From the NCBI RefSeq assembly GCF_026625605.1, contig NZ_CP113054.1, positions 806,001 to 870,000 of the forward strand: a stretch of 64,000 nucleotides of DNA, given 5' to 3'. This document shows, piece after piece, positions 29,378 to 39,996 of the stretch. The notes under the pieces were generated by a model. The model was not told the origin of the DNA. It saw only the letters and a program-made list of their open reading frames with translations, and did no database searches. Source of the DNA: Luteolibacter sp. SL250 (lineage in GTDB: Bacteria; Verrucomicrobiota; Verrucomicrobiia; Verrucomicrobiales; Akkermansiaceae). Both the position numbers and the translations under genes were made by a program. How positions within the stretch are numbered: the stretch's first letter is position 1; the number at the start of each line of letters is the position of its first letter.

Positions 29378-31111
29378 TCAGCGGGCGAGATATGCGCGCC
29401 AACCACGGAGGTGGGTGATTTCCTCCGCCCCATCCAGTGCCCGGGGTTCCGCGATGAATCCGGGCAGCGACTCGCCTGATGCCAGCGTCACTTTTCCGAT
29501 GCCCAGCGGGGCGGGGATTTTCGAGACGAAATCACCGAATGCGGCGGGATCCAGCGACCAGACCTCCACTTTGATGGCCGCCCCATTTTCGGCGTCATGG
29601 ACCATCGCGGGTCGTGCCGGGATGCTTCCTCCGGCAGGCATGGCGAACAACCGGTAGTGTGGGGATGTCTCGGTCCGTTGGACGAAAACCGCACCACGGT
29701 CCGCCAGTTGGTGATGGAGGGCCAGTCCTTCCAGATGCGCGCCGCAGACCACGACGGGGATCCGGATTTCCTCTTCCGTGAGAGTTTCCGGAAGCGGCTG
29801 GTTGGTGAACTTTCCGGCGAGACGCAGTAGGTCCTCGTCCGTCCCGGCCGGTGCGGCGAGGGTCACGCCCCAAGGCAGCCTGCCATCCCGGGCGAACCCG
29901 GTGGGGACCGCGACTGCGGCCAGATCCAGCAGGTTCATGAAATTCGTGTAACGACCGAGCACGGAGTTCGTCCGGATGGGATCGGCCAGCACTTCCTCCA
30001 CCGTGTAGAGGCAGGGGGTGGTGGGCAGCAGCAGGAAATCCACGCCCTGCCAGATGCCCTCCGCATCGCGGGCGAATTCGCGGAGCTGGTATTGTGCCTT
30101 GAAGGTGGCGGCGGCATCCCAGCCGCGGGAGTTCTCCAGGATCTGCTTCGTCACCGGATGGATGGCATCCGGATGGGCTTCCACGAAATCACCGACTGCT
30201 GCCCAGCGTTCCGCCACCCACGGGCCTTCGTAGAGCAGCTTCGCGGCGTCCACGAATGGGGTGAGATCAACCTCCACGGCGGTGCCGCCCATTTCCTCCA
30301 GCTTGGCGACGGCCTCCGCATAGAGCGCGGGGGTGTCCGGATCACCCGCGAAATCGAGCGACGCGGGAACACCGAAAAGAAAGCCCTCCGTCTCCAGGGA
30401 GACCGGCTCGACGTCCCGTGAGAACGGATCGGCCGGATCGAACACGCCGATGATTTCTGAAATGATCGCCGCATCCTCCGGTGTGTTCGCAAAGACGGAG
30501 ACGCAGTCGAGCGAGCGGCAGGCGGGAACCATGCCGCGGTTGCTGACAAGGCCGCGTGTCGGCTTCCAGCCGATGAGGTTCTGGAATGCGGCGGGTACCC
30601 GGCCGGATCCGGCGGTGTCCGTACCGAGTGAGAAGGCGCAGAGTCCGGCGGCGAGCGCCGCGGCACTGCCGGAGCTGGAGCCTCCCGGCAAATAGGCCGC
30701 GTCGAAGACATTGCGCGGAATGCCGTAGGGTGAGCGGACCCCTACAAGGCCGGTGGCGAACTGGTCGAGGTTCGCCTTTCCCAGCGGGATCGCACCCGCG
30801 GCGCGCAGCAGCCTCACCACCTCGGCATCCTCCGCCGGGGTGTAGGAAAACTCCGCGCAACCGGCGGTGGTCGGCCAACCGGCGACGTCGATGTTGTCCT
30901 TCACCACGAAAGGGACGCCCCACAGCGGGAGATCGGCCGGCATCGACTCCACCGCCGCCGCCAGATCGAGCCATTCCTCCTCCGGTGGCAGGTGGATGAA
31001 GATGGCCGGGTCATTGTGGGCCTCGATCCGCTTCCGCAGCAGGGAGACCATGCCGGTGGGTGTCAGGGTCCCGTCGGCATAGCTCTGTTTCAGGGAAGGA
31101 ATGGTCAGCAT
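29378..31111 (-). CDS. atzF: allophanate hydrolase
   Basis: Amidase-signature enzyme of 577 residues, the AtzF/DUR1,2-hydrolase type: allophanate to two ammonia and two CO2 in the cytoplasm. The amidase core holds the catalytic Lys in PFVVKDNIDVAG and the Ser-rich motif GGSSSGSAAALAAG with the cis-Ser and nucleophile Ser (GTDTAGSGRVPAAF). The C-terminal ~120 residues form the allophanate-hydrolase-specific domain (VVCGAHLEGLALHHQL, GIGKVTLASGESLPGF). It is the last gene of the cluster, 6 bases after the carboxylase stop, so translational coupling is likely. It completes the release of ammonia from urea- or guanidine-derived allophanate. Confidence 0.93.
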   Translation of the reverse strand: MLTIPSLKQSYADGTLTPTGMVSLLRKRIEAHNDPAIFIHLPPEEEWLDLAAAVESMPADLPLWGVPFVVKDNIDVAGWPTTAGCAEFSYTPAEDAEVVRLLRAAGAIPLGKANLDQFATGLVGVRSPYGIPRNVFDAAYLPGGSSSGSAAALAAGLCAFSLGTDTAGSGRVPAAFQNLIGWKPTRGLVSNRGMVPACRSLDCVSVFANTPEDAAIISEIIGVFDPADPFSRDVEPVSLETEGFLFGVPASLDFAGDPDTPALYAEAVAKLEEMGGTAVEVDLTPFVDAAKLLYEGPWVAERWAAVGDFVEAHPDAIHPVTKQILENSRGWDAAATFKAQYQLREFARDAEGIWQGVDFLLLPTTPCLYTVEEVLADPIRTNSVLGRYTNFMNLLDLAAVAVPTGFARDGRLPWGVTLAAPAGTDEDLLRLAGKFTNQPLPETLTEEEIRIPVVVCGAHLEGLALHHQLADRGAVFVQRTETSPHYRLFAMPAGGSIPARPAMVHDAENGAAIKVEVWSLDPAAFGDFVSKIPAPLGIGKVTLASGESLPGFIAEPRALDGAEEITHLRGWRAYLAR

Positions 31112-31117
31112 GGGCGG

Positions 31118-34100
31118 TCAGAGGATTTTGGCGATGAGGAGCGGCTGGCCCGCTTTCACGGGATTACCTTCGGCGGTGAGGATTTCGATGATCTCCAGCG
31201 TCTCGTCGGACTCCACCGGAATCTCCATTTTCATCGCCTCCAGGACAATCGCCGGATCGCCCGCGGCCAGTTTGTCCCCGGGCTTCACCTCGATCTTCCA
31301 GACATTTCCCGTCACCGGGCTTTCGAGGACGATGGCACCTTCCGGGATCGTGATTTCCTGCTCGGCGGATGTCTCCGTTTCCGCAGGAGAGTCAAGGTGC
31401 AGTCCGGCGTCCTCCCATCGTTGGCGTTCGTCGGCGAAGGCCTGGCGCTGGGTGGCGCGGAAGGCATCGATCTCCCCGGAGTGGATCTCCAGGAACGTCT
31501 CGTAGTCGGCGTAGCGGAAGACCGTCGGCTCGATGCGGATGCGGTGGCGGCCGAGCGGGACTTCCTCACGGAGCTGGAGCAACTCTTCCGGTGAAACCTC
31601 GTAAAACCGGAGCTGATCGAAGAACCGGAGCAGCCACGGCTTTTCGAAATCCGGGGTCTGCCGCCAACGGTTCCACATCTGGATGGTGCGGCCGGTGAAC
31701 TGGTAGCCTCCCGGCCCCTCCATGCCATAGACGCAGAGGTAGGCACCACCGATGCCGACGGCGTTCTCCGGCGTCCACGTCCGGGCGGGGTTGTATTTCG
31801 TCGTGACCAGACGGTGCCGGGGATCCAGCGGGGTGGCGACGGGCGCGCCGAGATAGACATCGCCCAGACCCATGACCAGATAGCTGGCATCGAAGAAGAT
31901 CCGCTTCACATCGTCGATGGAATCCAGACCGTTGATGCGGCGGATGAACTCCAGGTTGCTGGGGCACCACGGGGCCTTCGGGTTCACGCCCACCATGTAG
32001 CGGCGGATCGCCTCCTTCGTGCTGGGGTCATCCCAACTGATCGGCAGGTGGACGATGCGGGCGGGCACCTCGATCTGTTCCAGCGGTGGCAGTGCGGCGA
32101 TGCCGTGGCGGATGGTTTCCCGGAGCGTGTCGCGGGAGATCACCGTGCCGTCGAAATGGATCTGCAGCGAGCGGATGCCGGGCGTGAGGTCAATGATGCC
32201 CTTCAGCTTCTGCTTCTGCAGCCATTGGTAGACGACGTGGGCCTTGAAGCGGAGCTTCAGGTCGAGCAGGTGCGGACCGAACTCGATGAGCAGGTAGCGG
32301 TCCCCGGCGCGGCGGATCACCACCTTGTCATCCCCTTCGCCGAAGGAGTCCAGGATCGCGGAGTGAAGATCCAACGGCGCGGGTTCCGGGTCAGGCAGGG
32401 TGTCGATGTCTCCGTCGAGAAAGCCGGAAAGAGCCTCCGCCTGGCGGTCCGCCCACGCCTCGTCCACCGGGATGAAGGTGATCTTGTCACCCGGCCGGAT
32501 CTGGCCGAGCTTCCACAGCTCCGCGTCCACCACCACCACCGGACAGACGAAGCCGCCGAGGCTGGGACCGTCCGGACCGAGGATCACCGGCATGTCCCCG
32601 GTGAAGTCCACCGCGCCGATGGCGTAGGCATTGTCGTGGAGGTTGGACGGATGAAGCCCCGCCTCGCCGCCATCCGTGCGCGCCCACTTCGGCTTCGGTC
32701 CGATGAGCCGGACCCCGGTCCGGGCGGAGTTGTAGTGGACCTCCCATGGGGTGGCGAAGAAGGTGGAGATGTCTTCCGGAAGGAAGAACTCCGGTGCGCC
32801 GTGCGGCCCGTAGAGCACGCCGATTTTCCATTCGCGGGTATAGGGTAAGCGGGAAGGGCACTCCTGTCCTTCCATCTCGGGATCGGCGGATCCGATCCCG
32901 ATCACATCCCCGGGCAGCAACGCCCTTCCGCCATGTCCTCCGAACCTCCCCAGTGTGAAGGTGGATTTGCTCCCGAGATAATCCGGTGCCTCGATGCCTC
33001 CGGCGATGGCCAGGTAGGCGCGCAGGCCGCTTTCCTCGATCTTGCCGATCTTGAGGGTGTCGCCCGGAGCTACGGTGAATGCCGTATTCGGAGCGACGGA
33101 TTCGCCGTTCTTCAGGATCAGGACGGGTGGTCCCGCGATGGCGATGGTAGCGGCGGTGTTGAAGCGGAGCGACGGCCCCGCCATGGTGATCTCCAGGGCG
33201 GCGGTGCCGACCGCATTTCCGACCATGCGGTTCGCGCGGCGGAAGGTGAGGGAATCCATCGGCCCGGATGGCGGCACGCCCACCTCCCACAGTCCGGTCC
33301 GGCCCGGCCAGTCCTGGATCGTGGTCATGGTGCCACCGGAAAGGACGTCGAAGGTGGTGGGATGGTAGCCGAAGGAGGCCATGTCCCGCATGGCGACGCC
33401 GCCATCGGTGAACGGCTGCCAGCGTGCCACCTGGCGGAGGTAGCGCAGGTTCGTCTCGATGCCCGAAACGCGGGAATCATCGAGGGCGGTCGCGAGGTCG
33501 CGGATGGCCGTGGCGCGGTCCGCGGAATGGACCATGATCTTTCCGAGCAGCGGGTCGTAGAACGGGCTGACCTCCGTTCCGGCGGAGATCCAGTGGTCGG
33601 TGCGGGTGTTGACGGGAAACTCCACCTCCGTGAGCAGCCCGGCGCTGGGGCGGAAGTTCTGGTTGGGGTCTTCCGCGTAGAGGCGGGCCTGGATGGCGTG
33701 GCCCTTCGGCTCCGGTGCCGTGGATGGCAGGGTGAAGGACGGATCGAGCGCGAGCCGCGCCATCCATTCCACCAGGTCGATGCCGGTGACCAGCTCGGTG
33801 ACGCCGTGCTCCACCTGGAGGCGGGTGTTCACCTCCAGGAAATAGAATTCGGTACGGTCCGCATCGTAGATGAATTCCACCGTTCCGGCGGAGCGGTAGC
33901 TCAGGCTTTTCCCCAGCTCCACGGCGGCATGGTGCAGCGCGGCCCGTGTTTCCTCCGAAAGGAGCGGGGCGGGCGTTTCCTCGAAGACCTTCTGGTTGCG
34001 CCGCTGGACGGAGCAGTCGCGCTCTCCCAGGGCCAGCACATGGCCGTTCCCATCGCCGAAGATCTGGACCTCCACATGGCGTCCGCGCTGGACGTAGCGT

Positions 34101-34696
34101 TCCAGGAATACAGCTCCGGAGCCGAAGCTGCGCTGGCTGAGGCGGACCACGGACTCGAACTCACGGCGGAGTTCCTCCTCCGAATGGCAGATCTTCATGC
34201 CGATGCCGCCACCGCCAGCGGTGGATTTCAGCATCAGCGGGAAGCCCAGCTTCTCCGCGGCGGCGATGGCCGCATCCACGTCCTCCAGCAGGTCGGTGCC
34301 CGGGACGAGCGGCACGCCCGCGTCTCCGGCGAGACGGCGCGCCTCATGTTTCAGGCCGAAGGCGATGATCTGCTCCGGCGTCGGTCCCAGCCAGCGGATG
34401 CCGTTGTCCTCACAGAGCTTCGCGAAGTCCGTGTTCTCACTGAGCAGGCCGTAGCCGGGAAAGACCGCGGAGGCCCCTGCCTCCTTGGCTATTTCCAGCA
34501 GCCTGTCCTTCAGCAGGTAGCTTTCCGAAACCGGGCCGGGTCCGAGCCGGTGGGCCTCGTCCGCCAGATCGACATGCGGGGAGGCGGCGTCGGGGTCCGA
34601 ATAGACGGCGATGCTCTGGTAGCCGAGTTTTTTGAAGGTGCGGATCGCGCGCGCGGCGATCTCCCCCCGGTTGGCGATGAGGATTTTCGGGGTCAT
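31118..34696 (-). CDS. biotin-dependent urea/guanidine carboxylase (long single-chain)
   Basis: Carboxylase of 1,192 residues with all domains in one chain. Biotin carboxylase is at residues 1-~450 ([54 protein letters not shown]). The carboxyltransferase domains follow (KipA/KipI-type, [20 protein letters not shown] at ~490). The BCCP domain at the C-terminus has biotinyl Lys1156 in [10 protein letters not shown]. The family was first called urea carboxylase. Members that travel with two DUF1989 proteins have been shown to carboxylate guanidine to carboxyguanidine. The adjacent DUF1989 pair here therefore points to guanidine; direct assay would be needed. Starts 1 base after the upstream gene stop (TGACATG). 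Confidence 0.93.
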   Translation of the reverse strand: [1192 protein letters not shown]

Positions 34697-34697
34697 G

Positions 34698-35297
34698 TCA
34701 GGAAATGGAAACTTCGACCGGAGTGGGGTTCCAACCGTTGCAAGGGTTGTTGAGCTGTGGGCAGTTCGAGATCAGGCAGACCACGTCCATGCGGGCGACC
34801 ATTTCGACGTAGCAGCCGGGGGCGGAGATGCCGTCGGCAAAGGTGAGCTGCCCGTCCCGGGTGACGGGGACGTTCATGAAGAAGTTGATGTTGCTGGTGA
34901 TGTCCCGCTTGGTGAGCTCCACCTTCCACTCCTGCGCGCCGCGGATGAAGCTGTCCCGGCAGGCATGCATGCACTCCTTGTCATGGGCGTAGCGCATCGT
35001 GTTCGCTTCGCGGGAGCATGCCCCGCCGAGGGTATCGTGGCGGCCGCAGGTATCCCCGGTGATCTCCAGCAGGACGTTGCCCTCCGTGCTCATGATCCGG
35101 GTGCCGGTGGTGAGGTAGAGGGACTTCTGGGTCTGGATGGTCTGGTCAGCGCTGTAGCGCTCCGTGGGATCCGCCGCGCTGAAGAACAGGGTGTCTGCGG
35201 CCTGGTTGCCCTCCAGATCTGTGATGCGGAGCGTCTGGCCTTTCTTGATTTCGTGGACCCACCAGTCGCCGGCGGGAATGACGTGCTTGTGGCTCAT
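34698..35297 (-). CDS. DUF1989 protein, urea-carboxylase-associated protein 2 (carboxyguanidine deiminase subunit)
   Basis: Cytoplasmic protein of 199 residues of the DUF1989 family (UAAP2). Characteristic parts are [34 protein letters not shown] and a Cys/His-rich [18 protein letters not shown]. In guanidine-degrading bacteria the two DUF1989 proteins form a heteromeric carboxyguanidine deiminase (CgdAB), which releases ammonia and leaves allophanate; this is family knowledge, not visible in the sequence. Its start overlaps the stop of the partner gene by 4 bases, and the carboxylase begins one base after its stop. Equal expression of the two subunits is therefore likely. Confidence 0.88.
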
Positions 35298-36025
35298 GGT
35301 TGGGAAAGGGTGAGGAAGGTTTCGTTGTTTTCGTGGGCGCGGAGATTCTCCGGGCGGATGGTGAGCGATGGATCATCCACGGATGGTGGCGACCCGGCGA
35401 ATACCTCCAGCTTCACCTCCGTGGGCCGGTAGGCCGGATGCGGATCGAACGGGTGCTGGCAGGTGTTGAGGACAACGAGGGTGTCCAGCTCGAAGCGCAG
35501 CTCGACATGGTCGCCGGGCTTCGAGTTGCCGGGCACGAAATCGAGTTTTCCTTCCTCATCCGCCACCACCTTGCTGAACAGGTTCAGGTTCGGGACGAGG
35601 TCCTTCTTGCCGAGTCCCCACTTGCAAAGCTCGATGAGAAAGCCGTCGTGTGCGTTGCGGTTCCAGTCGTTGCGGGCCTGCTGGTAGTTGTTCTCCCCAT
35701 ACTTCTCCAGCACCAGTGCGGAGTTGGAATGCCCGCAAACGGTGTCATGCCAGCCCACGCTGTCCGAGGTGATGGAGGCCAACAGGCGGCCCATATCCGA
35801 GTGGATGCAGTAGGGCGCGCGGAGGTAGAAGATGTGCTGCCCCTTCAGCGTGTCGGACATGTGGTAGCGCTCCTGCCGCTCGGTGGCGTGGTAGAGGAGC
35901 ATGCCTACGTTCGCGCCGCCGGAGAGGTCGGTCAGGCGGAGGCGCTTGCCGCGCGAGATGATGCCGGACCACATGCCGGCGCCGGTGAGCGTGCGCGTGA
36001 GGATGGGAGTCATGGTGGATGTCAT
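35294..36025 (-). CDS. DUF1989 protein, urea-carboxylase-associated protein 1 (carboxyguanidine deiminase subunit)
   Basis: Protein of 243 residues, the larger DUF1989 partner (UAAP1). Shared elements with the smaller one are [36 protein letters not shown] and [17 protein letters not shown]. It has no signal peptide. By analogy with characterised guanidine-degradation clusters it should assemble with the downstream DUF1989 protein into carboxyguanidine deiminase. It is the first intact enzyme gene after the damaged NikR-like regulator on the same strand. Translational overlap with the next gene is ATGA. A pure urea pathway would not need this protein, so it is the best sequence clue to the substrate. 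Confidence 0.88.
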
Positions 36026-36041
36026 GGGATGGGATAGGGTT

Positions 36042-36146
36042 TCACGTGTCCTTTTCGTCAGGCTCCGTCTGGATGGGCGGCAGCAGGGTGCGGGTGAGAT
36101 TGAGGCGGCCGGCGATCATGCCCTTTGCCGAGCAGCTTGTTCGCGA
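36042..36146 (-). pseudogene. out-of-frame remnant of the NikR-like regulator C-terminus
   Basis: Directly after the stop of the NikR-like frame, the minus strand continues with regulator-like sequence in two other frames: AKRLRMIANKLLGKG in one, then [17 protein letters not shown] in another, ending at a TGA at 36042-36044. These match the expected end of this NikR subfamily (helix, then GRLxL beta strand and a Pro-rich tail). About a dozen residues that should follow VFLD (the strand bearing the family MEV/CLEV segment) are missing. The change between the last two frames can be explained by one extra G in AAAGGGCATG. A deletion plus a one-base insertion is the simplest reading. Confidence 0.6.
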
Positions 36147-36473
36147 TCATCCGCAGCCGCTTGGCCGGTCCAGGAACACCTGGAGCGAGCTGATGACCTC
36201 GCGGATGTGCTCGTGCTGGATGTCGGTGATCTGCTGTTTGATGCCGGCCCGCTTGTGGTCGTAGAAAAGGGTGATGGTTCCGGCCATCAGCGAGTTGCCC
36301 TTCAGGCTGTAGTAGTCGGAGATGTGCTGGTTGAGGACCTCCGCGATGGCATGGGAGCGGTTGACGAAACCGCGTTCCTCCATCAGGTCCCCGAACTGGG
36401 TGTGCAGCTCGTCCGAGATCGAGATGGTGACCCTGTGGGCGAGTTTTTCCTTTGGTCGGCGGGTGATCGGCAT
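36147..36473 (-). CDS. NikR-like ribbon-helix-helix regulator, C-terminal domain disrupted
   Basis: 108 residues from the ATG at 36473, preferred over 36479 because GGAG lies 6 bases upstream of it. The N-terminal ribbon-helix-helix (HRVTISISDELHTQF, VNRSHAIAEVL) keeps the Arg/Thr strand residues and the Arg of NRS that read DNA in NikR. The C-terminal ACT-like domain begins normally (GTITLFYDHKRAG, DIQHEHIREVISSL) but then reads QVFLD where nickel-binding members have HVHLD, and stops at CG-TGA after a frameshift. So two of the four nickel ligands are replaced and the rest of the domain is out of frame. It probably controls this cluster through the TCATACGAT sites, or is a decaying gene. Confidence 0.7.
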   Translation of the reverse strand: MPITRRPKEKLAHRVTISISDELHTQFGDLMEERGFVNRSHAIAEVLNQHISDYYSLKGNSLMAGTITLFYDHKRAGIKQQITDIQHEHIREVISSLQVFLDRPSGCG

Positions 36474-36522
36474 GCGCATCTCCGCAAAGCACGAACCCTG
36501 CCGGATTCAGGATTTCCGGAGA

Positions 36523-36559
36523 AATCGTATGATGAATGTGAAATGATCATCATACGATT
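36523..36559. promoter_or_regulatory. perfect 13-bp inverted repeat, NikR-type operator (GTATGA-N17-TCATAC)
   Basis: Arms AATCGTATGATGA (36523-36535) and TCATCATACGATT (36547-36559) are exact reverse complements, with an 11-base spacer. The core half-sites GTATGA and TCATAC are those published for E. coli NikR (GTATGA-N16-TCATAC); here the spacing is 17. The site lies between the stop of the ABC ATPase and the NikR-like gene, 50-86 bases upstream of its start, so it probably mediates autoregulation of the regulator-DUF1989-carboxylase-hydrolase genes. Confidence 0.75.
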
Positions 36560-36568
36560 GCGGGGGCC

Positions 36569-37474
36569 TCATTCCACGTTGTCGTCCACGTTGGTCATCC
36601 GGCCGAAGGGCAGCTTGTCGAACACCGGCTCCGCATGGTCATCCTCCGGGTGGATGATGGTTTCGAGATGGCTCTTGGTGGCGAGGAATTCCGGCGAGCG
36701 GAGCTGCGAGTGGTCCCGCGGACGGGGCACGGGAACCTCCAGCACCTCCCGGACACGGCCCGGGCGGGGATCGAGGACGAGGATGCGGTCGGAAAGGAAG
36801 ATGGCCTCATCCAGATCATGCGTGATGAAGAAGATGGTGATGTCCACGTTCTTCCAGATCTGCAGGAGGTAGGCCTGCATCTGCTGGCGGGTCTGCGGGT
36901 CCAGCGCGCCGAACGGCTCGTCCATCAGCAGGATGCGCGGCTCGTTCGCAAGCGCGCGGGCGATCGCGGCGCGCTGCTTCATGCCGCCGCTGAGCTGGTG
37001 CGGGTAGGAGTTCTCGAACTTGTCGAGGCCGACGAGGGCCAGCCACTGGCGGGCCTCCGCCTCGTTGGTGAAGTCACTCTTTCCCGCCATGCGGGGGCCG
37101 TACATCACGTTCTGCTTCACCGTCAGCCAGGGGAAGAGGGTGTAGCTCTGGAAGACCATGCCACGGTCACGGCCGGGGCCGGTGATGGGGCTGCCATCGA
37201 CAAGCACCTCTCCGGAAGTCGGTGTTTCGAGTCCCGCGAGGATGCGGATGAGCGTGGATTTCCCGCAGCCCGACTGGCCGAGCACGCACATGAGTTCCCG
37301 CCGGTGGACCGTCAGGTTGATGTCCTGCAGCGCGGTCACTTCACCGGCCTTCGAGTCGAACTTCTTGTAAAGTCCGTTGATCTCCAGGATGGGCGGACGC
37401 TGGTAGATTTTCCCGAACCGGGCTTTCACCGCAGGGGACTGGTCGAGATGGGACAGGGTTTCCATCGTGCTCAT
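36569..37474 (-). CDS. ABC transporter ATPase, NitT/TauT (SsuB/NrtD-like) family
   Basis: ATPase of 301 residues. Walker A LGQSGCGKSTLIRI (residues 84-97 region), Q-loop VFQSYTLFPWLTV, signature LSGGMKQRAAIARAL, Walker B ILLMDEPFGALD and H-loop FFITHDLDEAIFL. It energises import with the permease whose gene it overlaps by 4 bases. The C-terminal ~70 residues (VPVPRPRDHSQLRS and onward) are the usual NitT/TauT extension. The transporter type is the one regularly found next to carboxylase/DUF1989 clusters, so the likely cargo is urea or guanidine; this is inferred from context. Confidence 0.93.
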   Translation of the reverse strand: MSTMETLSHLDQSPAVKARFGKIYQRPPILEINGLYKKFDSKAGEVTALQDINLTVHRRELMCVLGQSGCGKSTLIRILAGLETPTSGEVLVDGSPITGPGRDRGMVFQSYTLFPWLTVKQNVMYGPRMAGKSDFTNEAEARQWLALVGLDKFENSYPHQLSGGMKQRAAIARALANEPRILLMDEPFGALDPQTRQQMQAYLLQIWKNVDITIFFITHDLDEAIFLSDRILVLDPRPGRVREVLEVPVPRPRDHSQLRSPEFLATKSHLETIIHPEDDHAEPVFDKLPFGRMTNVDDNVE

Positions 37475-38865
37475 TGGGGCAGGTTTCCGGGAGCGGGTTC
37501 ACCGGCGACCGGCGTGGGCTTGGAAGGCTTGATCATCCGGATCATCGCCGGGATGCCGGAAAGGATCCTGTCCACGATGCCTTTCTTCGGCTGTTCCGCC
37601 CACGGAAAGAAGTAACGGGCGAGGTGGGCGAGGATCTGGTCCATGAGGAAGCCGGACAGCCCGATCATCAGGATGGCGGGATAGACGATGTCGAACTGGA
37701 AGCGGCGGCCGTGGGTGTCGATGATCTCCGCCAGTCCGCTCTTGAAGCCGAGGAGTTCCGCGATGACCAGCCAGGTCCAGGCGGTGCTTAGCAACAGGCG
37801 CAGATCCTTGTAGAGGTTCGGCAGGATGCCCGGGACGATCACCGTGCGGATGAGCTGGGCGCGGCTGGCACCGAGGGTCTGCGCGGCCTCCAGCAGGGAC
37901 GGGTCCAGTCCGCGGGTGGTCTTGGCGATGGTCAGGATCGCGCAGGGCAGGGTGCCGAGAAACACAAGCATCACCTTCGGTCCCATATCGAGGCCGAAGA
38001 TGGCCATCAGCACCACGCCGAACGCGGGGGCCGGCATGTAGCTGAAGAAGTTCACGAACGGCTCCGTGAGCTTCGAGATGAAATCAAATGTTCCGGCGAG
38101 GATGCCGATGGGAATGGCGACGGCGATGGCGAGCAGGAAGCCGCAGATGATGGTCCGCCATGATTCACCGTAGCGCTGCAGCAGCGTCTTCCGTTCGGCT
38201 CCGGCCTCGGCGCCATCGGCCTTCTTCGCCGTGATGCCTTTCCAGAAAGAGCGGGCGACGACATCCGGAGGGACGAGGAAGACAGGTCGCGAAACTTCCT
38301 CCGCCGCCTGTGGCAGCAGCTTCAGCATCGGCTCCGTCGGCCAGCCGGTTCCGGCAGCGGCGAGCATCTCTGCGTTCGCCTTCACGATGGCCAGGTTCCC
38401 ATCCGTGATGGGTTCCTTCTCCGCCTCCAGCTTTCCGGCGGCGAGGTCGATCCAGGTTTTCCGCAGCGCCTCGTCATCCATGTCCTGTTCGCGGGTGAGC
38501 CAGCCGTTGGTGACCGCGACGGGATGGATCTGGCGGACGATCTTCTTACCCTGTCTGGCAGTGGCCGTGGCGGTCCCGCCGGACTCCCGCGCCGCGAGGA
38601 TCTCCTGGTTGTCCTTTGACACGGCGTCCTGGAACTCCTTCCACGTCTCCGGGGTGAGGCGGTTGCCCGTGGTATAGACGCTCTGCAGCCGGGTGGTCTC
38701 CGCCGGAATGGTGATCTGGTAGGCGACCTTCCACCACGGACCGTAGGCGGCAACGCACCAGATGAGCAGCGGCAGGATGAAGGAGCACACCATCAGGACC
38801 GTGGCCCGGGTGTGCCCCAGATCTTTCCTCACCGCCCACCAGTTTCCGGAAGAAGGGAATTTCAT
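37471..38865 (-). CDS. ABC transporter permease, NitT/TauT family, with long N-terminal periplasmic insertion
   Basis: Permease of 464 residues. One N-terminal TM helix (VLMVCSFILPLLIWCVAAYG) is followed by ~170 soluble residues and then a normal binding-protein-dependent permease core of about six TM helices. The EAA loop is EAAQTLGASRAQLIRTVIVP. Ordinary SsuC/TauC permeases are about 260 residues, so the extra N-terminal TM plus soluble segment is an addition, probably periplasmic, that could contact the binding protein. The C-terminal 40 residues are a cytoplasmic Pro-rich tail. Operon: 19 bases after the binding-protein gene, 4-base overlap with the ATPase gene. Confidence 0.92.
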   Translation of the reverse strand: MKFPSSGNWWAVRKDLGHTRATVLMVCSFILPLLIWCVAAYGPWWKVAYQITIPAETTRLQSVYTTGNRLTPETWKEFQDAVSKDNQEILAARESGGTATATARQGKKIVRQIHPVAVTNGWLTREQDMDDEALRKTWIDLAAGKLEAEKEPITDGNLAIVKANAEMLAAAGTGWPTEPMLKLLPQAAEEVSRPVFLVPPDVVARSFWKGITAKKADGAEAGAERKTLLQRYGESWRTIICGFLLAIAVAIPIGILAGTFDFISKLTEPFVNFFSYMPAPAFGVVLMAIFGLDMGPKVMLVFLGTLPCAILTIAKTTRGLDPSLLEAAQTLGASRAQLIRTVIVPGILPNLYKDLRLLLSTAWTWLVIAELLGFKSGLAEIIDTHGRRFQFDIVYPAILMIGLSGFLMDQILAHLARYFFPWAEQPKKGIVDRILSGIPAMIRMIKPSKPTPVAGEPAPGNLPQ

Positions 38866-38884
38866 GTGGGGCCGGGATGGGGAA

Positions 38885-39865
38885 TCACTTCCCGAAGACT
38901 TCCTTTGAAAGCGATGGGTCGAAGTAGGAGTCGATGTCGCTCGGCTTCTCGTAGACTTTGAAGGTCACATTGAAGTCGTCCACGATCTTCGAGGAACCGT
39001 AGATGGACCCGAGTCCGTCCGCCTTTTCCCAGACCTTGAGGACTTCCGCCGGGCTGAGGATCTTCGTTCCGTCCAGCAGCGGCTCGTATTCGGCCGGTTT
39101 GACGCCCACCCGCTCCGCGAGGATGGCGAGCGCGTCGTCCAGGTTGTCCTCCTTGGAGAGGTATTCGGTGATGCGGCCCCAGACCTTCACCACCTTGAGC
39201 CAGTCGGCGCGGCGGGACTTCACGCTGTCACGGTCGCAGAAAAGTCCGTCGTAGATGAGACCGGGAACGTCCTTCGAGGTGAAGACCGGTTTCGATCCGG
39301 GGACCAGCTTGAGGGCCTGGCCGGAGTTCGGCTGCCACGCGGCGATGGCGTCCACCTCGCCGGAGGCGAAGACCTGCGGGGTGTTGTTGGTGGGTGTGTT
39401 CTTGATGGTGATGTCACCCTCCGCCATGCCGTTCAGCTCCAGGCCTTTCAGCAGCAGCAGGTGCTCCACGAAGCCTTCCTCAAGCGCGATGGTCTTGCCC
39501 TTCAGGTCCTTCAGGCTCTTGTATTCCTTCTTGGCGACGATCATGTCGTTGCCGTTGGAGTAGTCGTTGATGAGGACGCAGACGGAAGGCTTGCCGGTGG
39601 CTCCCGTGACGAGCGCGTCACCATTGGTCACGCACACCGCATCCAGTTTCCCGGCGGCATAGGCTTCCATGGATTTCACGTAGTCCATCCAGACAAAGTC
39701 CACCTCCACGCCTTCTTCCTTGAACCAGCCTTTCTTGATGCCGATCTCCCAGGCGACCCAGCCCGGCCAGTCCGAGTAGCCGATTTTCAGGGGTTCCGCG
39801 GCGAGGTTGGCGAGGGAAGTCAGCGCGGCGAGCGCCGTGGCGAGGATCGTTTTGCTCAGTTTCAT
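38885..39865 (-). CDS. ABC transporter substrate-binding protein of the urea-carboxylase-region type
   Basis: Periplasmic binding protein of 326 residues with signal peptide [19 protein letters not shown]. The NMT1/SsuA-like fold shows [20 protein letters not shown], then [35 protein letters not shown] and [14 protein letters not shown]. The [11 protein letters not shown] start is characteristic of the binding proteins annotated as belonging to urea carboxylase regions. Longer upstream frames lack a signal peptide. It is the first gene of the transporter operon. The upstream region carries two TCATACGAT sites and a sigma-54-type element. Ligand: guanidine or urea by context. Confidence 0.9.
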
Positions 39866-39924
39866 GGAGTATGGGGCGTGGAGTTCGCGGACTCCCGGAA
39901 GGGGGAGCGATACCGGCCCGATTA

Positions 39925-39940
39925 AGCATTGGGCATGCCA
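39925..39940 (-). promoter_or_regulatory. sigma-54-type -24/-12 promoter element upstream of the ABC transporter operon
   Basis: On the minus strand the sequence reads TGGCATGCCCAATGCT. Compared with the sigma-54 consensus TGGCACG-N4-TTGCW it differs at two of twelve defined positions and keeps the invariant GG and GC with exactly 10 bases between them. The predicted transcript start is near 39913, giving a leader of about 50 nt before the binding-protein ATG at 39865. Sigma-54 control fits a nitrogen-scavenging transporter. No enhancer-binding activator gene is in the window. Confidence 0.5.
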
Positions 39941-39960
39941 CCGGCTCCGGAGATGGCTCG

Positions 39961-39996
39961 GATCGTCATACGATCGCCTCCCCGGAGTCATACGAT
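39961..39996. promoter_or_regulatory. two TCATACGAT half-sites (NikR-type operator) upstream of the transporter genes
   Basis: GTCATACGAT occurs at 39965-39974 and again at 39987-39996, in the same orientation with a 22-base period (about two helical turns). The first copy is embedded in the palindrome GATCGT-CAT-ACGATC (39961-39975). The 9-mer TCATACGAT is identical to the half-sites of the inverted repeat at 36523-36559. The sites lie 25-56 bases upstream of the -24 element of the transporter promoter and also upstream of the divergent PSCyt gene at 40113. Confidence 0.6.

Follow-up and report, generated by a model that had tools for sequence, protein, structure and literature searches.

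Paired NikR-type operators and a candidate NikR-derived regulator at the guanidine genes of Luteolibacter sp. SL250

Why should the half-site of a nickel regulator stand at both promoters of a gene cluster for guanidine use? The question is raised by a stretch of 64,000 nucleotides from the genome of Luteolibacter sp. SL250 (contig NZ_CP113054.1), here called the window, in which the 9-mer TCATACGAT or its complement occurs next to genes for the uptake and degradation of guanidine and a gene for a relative of NikR. Our reading, to which we assign a probability of about 0.72, is that the four repeats form two operators for a local repressor descended from NikR, which would control nitrogen-regulated guanidine genes and would no longer sense nickel.

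Paired operators at a guanidine cluster

The original prediction, made from the letters of the window alone, named four copies of TCATACGAT, and all are there, at 36524-36532, 36550-36558, 39966-39974 and 39988-39996. Across 100 dinucleotide shuffles of the window the mean was 0.10 copies, and four copies were reached in 0/100. The copies pair in the two ways that had been claimed. Operator 1 is a perfect 13-bp inverted repeat with arms at 36523-36535 and 36547-36559 and a loop of 11 nt, and operator 2, read on the coding (minus) strand, is GTATGA directly repeated with a period of 22 bp (Table 1). The gene map confirms that they occupy the only two substantial intergenic gaps of the cluster. 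The core GTATGA/TCATAC had been equated correctly with the half-site of E. coli NikR, whose operator is GTATGA-N16-TCATAC (PMC7055735); the N17 spacer of operator 1 is one base longer.

In principle the repeats could have arisen by chance or be recognised by some unrelated factor, and ten further copies of TCATACGAT in the 4.9-Mb genome (14 in all) might be taken that way. Those ten copies are all singletons within long open frames, and their number is close to the ~8 that the shuffle rate of the window predicts for 4.9 Mb. In the whole-genome scan that the original prediction had asked for, it was the paired sites that stood out. GTATGA-N15..17-TCATAC has two sites in the genome, of which the one outside the cluster (2,006,347) is isolated, has a G+C-rich spacer and lies inside open frames. 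The direct repeat of operator 2 occurs once, and the runner-up site has 3 mismatches. Because the pairs are unique genome-wide and the outside 9-mers are singletons near the chance rate, the signal is the paired sites and not the 9-mer itself. The pairs are also conserved between genomes and co-vary with a recognition residue of the regulator, as described below. A chance origin was rejected on uniqueness and conservation, and we consider chance or an unrelated factor extremely improbable.

The cluster had been described as one for guanidine or urea, of which the guanidine part stands and the urea part does not. In the carboxylase of the window, Asp (HPSNLHDNAYAIGAVDFTG) is found where yeast urea carboxylase has Asn, which we take to be Asn1330. 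Asp in place of this Asn is a mark of guanidine carboxylases (PMC12186494). The same Asp is present in 62/62 carboxylases of relatives that were readable at the position. The parts of the guanidine carboxylase pathway, namely this Asp, cgdA, cgdB and allophanate hydrolase, are all found in the window cluster. Because the carboxylase has the guanidine-type Asp, the cluster is, judged by sequence, specific for guanidine.

Relatives, nickel site and recognition residue

A match to the regulator was found in 18 of 59 related genomes, including SL250. The 17 other loci were fetched, and cgdA/cgdB, the carboxylase or the transporter lies near the regulator in 15; of the remaining two, L041 comes from a short contig and L049, the weakest match, lies outside such a cluster. 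A wider scan, in which each species was represented by a single genome, gave 170 relatives, of which 80 were kept. These belong to Verrucomicrobiota, Gammaproteobacteria, Alphaproteobacteria and Burkholderiales, and named strains with the family include Haloferula, Luteolibacter, Pelagicoccus, Roseibacillus and Parvibaculum. The regulator gene adjoins cgdA/cgdB or the carboxylase in 74/80, and each of the remaining six lies on a cut contig or next to the ATP-binding cassette (ABC) transporter. Among 241 genomes of the phylum, 30 have UAAP1 (cgdA-type) above its cut-off, and 24 of these have a NikR_C gene within ~6.3 kb (coordinates joined by hand).

The nickel site of NikR is square-planar and is formed by His87, His89 and Cys95 with His76 of the neighbouring subunit (PMC7055735). 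Cys95 is present in none of the 80 relatives and none of 19 further guanidine-linked genes of the phylum (0/99 in all), and most linked members also lack His76 and/or His89. The nickel-site positions in the 80 relatives read RHLT, HHHT, RHLV, HHLT and the like, whereas all 30 NikRs of the phylum that do not adjoin such genes read HHHC (30/30). In these counts L172, which lies beside UAAP1 and reads HHHY, was treated as linked, and L206 is a repeat of L146. Position 102 is Gln in 19/19 linked phylum genes and Arg or Lys in the unlinked NikRs. The window copy has Gln at 87 and Phe at 89, and position 95 is missing. A branch of linked regulators from the same class (L189, L191, L194, L195) reads HHHY, with Tyr replacing Cys95, and may be an intermediate between the nickel sensor and the derived family.

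These residues bear on an alternative in which the regulator would still sense nickel or another metal and would repress the nickel-independent, biotin-dependent guanidine/urea route when a nickel urease can work. The genome does encode a urease (alpha subunit at G000:C1:154045-154410), so a nickel-dependent and another route to urea/guanidine nitrogen coexist, and three histidines are retained in some linked members (HHHT in Pseudomonadota, HHHY in Opitutales). The predicted NikR control of an Fe-only hydrogenase in Desulfovibrio offers a precedent (PMC545781), and NCBIfam would name intact relatives NikR. The universal loss of Cys95 and the frequent loss of His76 and/or His89 argue against such a nickel-sparing switch, as do a search of the urease region of this genome, which gave no paired operator, and a genome search that found no [NiFe] hydrogenase. 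In addition, both kinds of gene, one of each, occur together in genome G187, where the HHHC paralog and the guanidine genes are on separate contigs. We therefore consider retained metal sensing very unlikely. Since NCBIfam places an intact relative above NikR cut-offs, the guanidine-linked genes probably carry a nickel-regulator annotation.

The comparison of intergenic regions in related genomes, also proposed in the original prediction, tied the operator to position 5 of the regulator, which contacts DNA. Where this residue is Thr, GTATGA is found upstream of the regulator in 21/21 loci, the window included, with 37 copies against 1.5 expected and 0 copies of GTAATAC; it is also upstream of the binding-protein gene in 6/6 Thr5-type sequences that cover that gene, again including the window. 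Where it is Ser, GTAATAC is found upstream of the regulator in 29/59 loci and upstream of the transporter gene in 29/31. Half-sites in relatives are spaced 22-23 bp when inverted or 21-22 bp when direct, and many have N16. In Pseudomonadota, GTATGA and GTAATAC were looked for upstream of the regulator itself and were absent, because the operator there lies upstream of the transporter gene. A divergent, separate Thr5 lineage (L201), checked afterwards, has GTATGA-N16-TCATAC. In its sister L197, a single GTATGA half-site is combined with a single GTAATA half-site; no half-site was found upstream of the regulator in L194. Because of the linkage, the loss of the nickel site, the conserved operators and the joint change of recognition residue and operator, sequence comparison strongly supports a NikR-derived subfamily that regulates the scavenging of guanidine nitrogen, rather than nickel uptake, over ~100 related genomes.

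Promoters, proposed control and a truncated regulator

Elements of the sigma-54 type, overlooked by the original prediction, lie beside both operators. They were scored at 11 positions against the consensus GG-N10-GC with TGGCAC/TTGC context. At both promoters of the window, the -24 element is separated by 29-31 bp from the nearer half-site and by 52-53 bp from the farther one, and the genome encodes sigma-54. Among relatives, transporter promoters score at least 9/11 in 31/37 loci against ~0.2 in shuffles, with none on the reverse strand, and the promoters of Thr5 regulators score at least 8/11 in 13/21 against 0.9 expected. Both promoters of the window thus look sigma-54 dependent by their sequence. 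Of 19 Pseudomonadota that have both elements, 18 place the beginning of the first half-site 21-24 bp past that of the -24 element. The half-site there covers the predicted start site, as would be expected for a repressor. In Opitutales the corresponding distance is ~31-35 bp; in Verrucomicrobiales, including the window, the half-site precedes the -24 element by 6-31 bp.

In the mechanism that we propose, the NikR-like factor would have two target promoters and would bind at each a pair of GTATGA half-sites separated by two helical turns. One promoter (39966-39996) would serve the guanidine ABC transporter operon, and the other (36523-36559) would be the factor's own and would also drive the genes for cgdA, cgdB, guanidine carboxylase and allophanate hydrolase. 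Nitrogen limitation would turn both promoters on through sigma-54 and an activator, and the NikR-like protein would keep them silent as long as guanidine is lacking. The two inputs would make an AND gate, in which sigma-54 conveys nitrogen limitation and the NikR-like protein exerts a pathway-specific repression lifted by guanidine or an intermediate. We infer that the likeliest signal is guanidine or a breakdown intermediate, bound in the remodelled C-terminal domain. The regulator might instead answer another general nitrogen or metabolic signal, or its part at the sigma-54 promoters might be that of a co-activator rather than a repressor, and the upstream half-sites of Verrucomicrobiales would suit such a role. 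We find this unlikely, given that Pseudomonadota have the operator across the predicted start site and Opitutales have it downstream of the -24 element, and that the near-exclusive linkage to guanidine genes favours a pathway-specific signal.

Known guanidine sensors bear on the ligand. An Rfam scan of the window gave a tRNA only, with no guanidine riboswitch upstream of the cluster, and no guanidine-I riboswitch was found in the 59 related genomes or in the 241 phylum genomes. In gammaproteobacterial loci, guanidine-I or guanidine-II lies within the same stretch in 7/9 searched. This favours guanidine as the compound that matters, and it implies that riboswitch and protein regulation probably operate side by side in these clusters. 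Guanidine-II was seen upstream of the carboxylase, between cgdB and the carboxylase, in L087, L090, L093, L100 and L102; L099 and L108 are further riboswitch loci. The widespread NikR-derived family may be the first guanidine-sensing transcription factor, its nickel site swapped for a guanidinium or carboxyguanidine pocket and its DNA-binding module retained, working alongside riboswitches or replacing them at sigma-54 promoters. We put this more specific proposal just short of an even chance.

The original prediction was right that a NikR relative is encoded beside the sites, and it missed that the reading frame is interrupted. The best match of the window regulator in PDB is 2bj1, with 1q5v also matched, and it has the two-domain NikR architecture. 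Pfam NikR_C is above its cut-off over positions 1-40 of 77. The protein falls below all NCBIfam NikR cut-offs, whereas an intact relative in L035 exceeds two NikR equivalog cut-offs. Relative to intact homologs of ~140-180 aa, the gene has a 37-nt deletion (between 36172/36171) and a 2-nt deletion (between 36129/36128). Owing to the frameshift caused by the 37-nt loss, the protein stops after 110 aa; a remnant of the C-terminal domain can be read in shifted frames down to 36042. The deletions take away half of the C-terminal (effector) domain and leave the DNA-binding domain and both operators intact. Because the effector domain is truncated while the operators are intact, the truncation appears to be recent, and control of the guanidine genes in this strain is probably relaxed or altered.

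The truncation also allows a reading confined to this strain, in which the regulator is inactive, the operators are unoccupied leftovers and the cluster is under nitrogen (sigma-54) control alone. The loss of half the effector domain fits this reading, and a second copy of the regulator was searched for in this genome and not found. On the other side, the DNA-binding domain is intact, both operators are perfect and a truncated dimer could still bind. An assembly error could also account for the truncation, though a general sequence error is unlikely because the large genes flanking the regulator are intact. We regard the relic as a substantial possibility, clearly below an even chance. The predicted local regulon of a NikR relative for nitrogen scavenging accordingly holds for the family, whereas the truncated regulator of this strain may not work normally.

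The truncation is one of several points that weigh against a guanidine repressor descended from NikR. At the regulator promoter, the sigma-54 element matches moderately (8/11), less well than that of the transporter, and it would leave almost no leader. With the operator upstream of the -24 element in Verrucomicrobiales, repression is less obvious there than in Pseudomonadota. In 6/30 phylum genomes with UAAP1, there is no nearby NikR-like gene. The Thr5 state requires two changes on a tree of 79 relatives, where a single origin is not rejected (p-AU 0.366), and Thr5 and GTATGA changed jointly just two to three times. The association therefore rests on few independent events and carries no formal significance.

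The genes on the minus strand run in the order substrate-binding protein, permease and ATPase, then regulator, cgdA-type, cgdB-type, carboxylase and allophanate hydrolase. In clusters of Pseudomonadota and of the Pelagicoccus type, a creatininase-like and a glutamine-synthetase-like gene separate the regulator from the transporter ATPase (L093 5838-7983; L110 5646-7908; translations read by eye). The matches to the carboxylase and to cgdA in genome G010 are split into several separate shifted-frame pieces (L043 12607-16168, 10828-11546), which suggests decay or sequencing error.

Table 1. Coordinates of the operators, promoter elements and genes in the window
Feature	Position	Strand	Remarks
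Allophanate hydrolase	29378..31111	-	TIGR02713 above cut-off
Guanidine carboxylase (annotated urea carboxylase)	31118..34696	-	TIGR02712 above cut-off; Asp at yeast Asn position
UAAP2 (cgdB-type, DUF1989), carboxyguanidine deiminase subunit	34698..35297	-	TIGR03424 above cut-off
UAAP1 (cgdA-type, DUF1989), carboxyguanidine deiminase subunit	35294..36025	-	TIGR03425 above cut-off
Out-of-frame remnant of regulator C-terminal domain	36042..36146	-	DNA-level comparison with intact relatives
NikR-like ribbon-helix-helix regulator, truncated	36147..36479	-	110-aa open frame; start possibly at 36473
Probable sigma-54 -24/-12 element, regulator promoter	36489..36503	-	CGGCAGGGTTCGTGC, 8/11; 29 bp to nearer operator 1 half-site
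Operator 1	36523..36559	.	AATCGTATGATGA-N11-TCATCATACGATT = GTATGA-N17-TCATAC; upstream of regulator/degradation operon
ABC transporter ATPase	36569..37474	-	Profile search
ABC transporter permease	37471..38865	-	Profile search
ABC transporter substrate-binding protein	38885..39865	-	NMT1/SsuA type; best NCBIfam match TIGR03427 (urea-carboxylase-linked), below cut-off
Sigma-54 -24/-12 element, transporter operon	39926..39940	-	TGGCATGCCCAATGC, 9/11 consensus positions; 31 bp to nearer operator 2 half-site
Operator 2	39966..39996	-	Direct repeat ATCGTATGA-N13-ATCGTATGA, 22-bp period; upstream of transporter operon

Comparison with riboswitches and NikR

A 2025 review lists riboswitches as the only known guanidine receptors besides transporters and enzymes, with guanidine-binding transcription factors yet to be found (PMC12186494). 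Our search of open-licence papers on guanidine/urea carboxylase with NikR, CopG or ribbon-helix-helix gave no description of the family. A NikR-derived regulator family that lacks the nickel site and serves guanidine use thus appears to be new relative to the searched literature. It would be a concrete, testable candidate for a guanidine-responsive protein switch with known operators in Verrucomicrobiota and Pseudomonadota. A further suggestion of the comparison is that, inside guanidine clusters, the genes to which current annotation models give the name NikR do not sense nickel. The family would further offer a natural series of a metal sensor changing its ligand and of a ribbon-helix-helix protein changing its operator (Thr5/GTATGA, Ser5/GTAATAC). 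The guanidine-I and guanidine-II riboswitches (ykkC, mini-ykkC) control these carboxylase and cgdAB genes too, and share several gammaproteobacterial clusters with the NikR-like gene, but they are RNA sensors, unlike the NikR-like protein.

The family shares the two-domain architecture of NikR, a ribbon-helix-helix domain followed by an ACT-like NikR_C domain, known from structures of the nickel-responsive proteins of E. coli and P. horikoshii, and its Thr5 members also share the GTATGA-N16-TCATAC operator; E. coli NikR likewise combines Thr5 with GTATGA. It differs from NikR in that Cys95 is always replaced and His89 and His76 often are, in an invariant Gln102 where NikR has Arg or Lys, and in a conserved proline near the C-terminus. 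Its neighbours and putative regulon concern guanidine uptake and degradation, not nickel, and the urease region has no paired operator. The dimer of a ribbon-helix-helix protein is two-fold symmetric. Half-site orientation is variable in NikR regulons (PMC545781), and with the symmetry of the dimer this explains why the direct-repeat layout of operator 2 fits a NikR relative. The NikR regulons of delta-proteobacteria use GTGTTAC-N13/14-GTAACAC, and their targets are nickel transporters and a hydrogenase (PMC545781). These operators and those of the new family have half-sites about two turns apart whose orientation may flip, and the GTATTAC/GTAATAC of the Ser5 members resembles the delta-proteobacterial GTGTTAC/GTAACAC.

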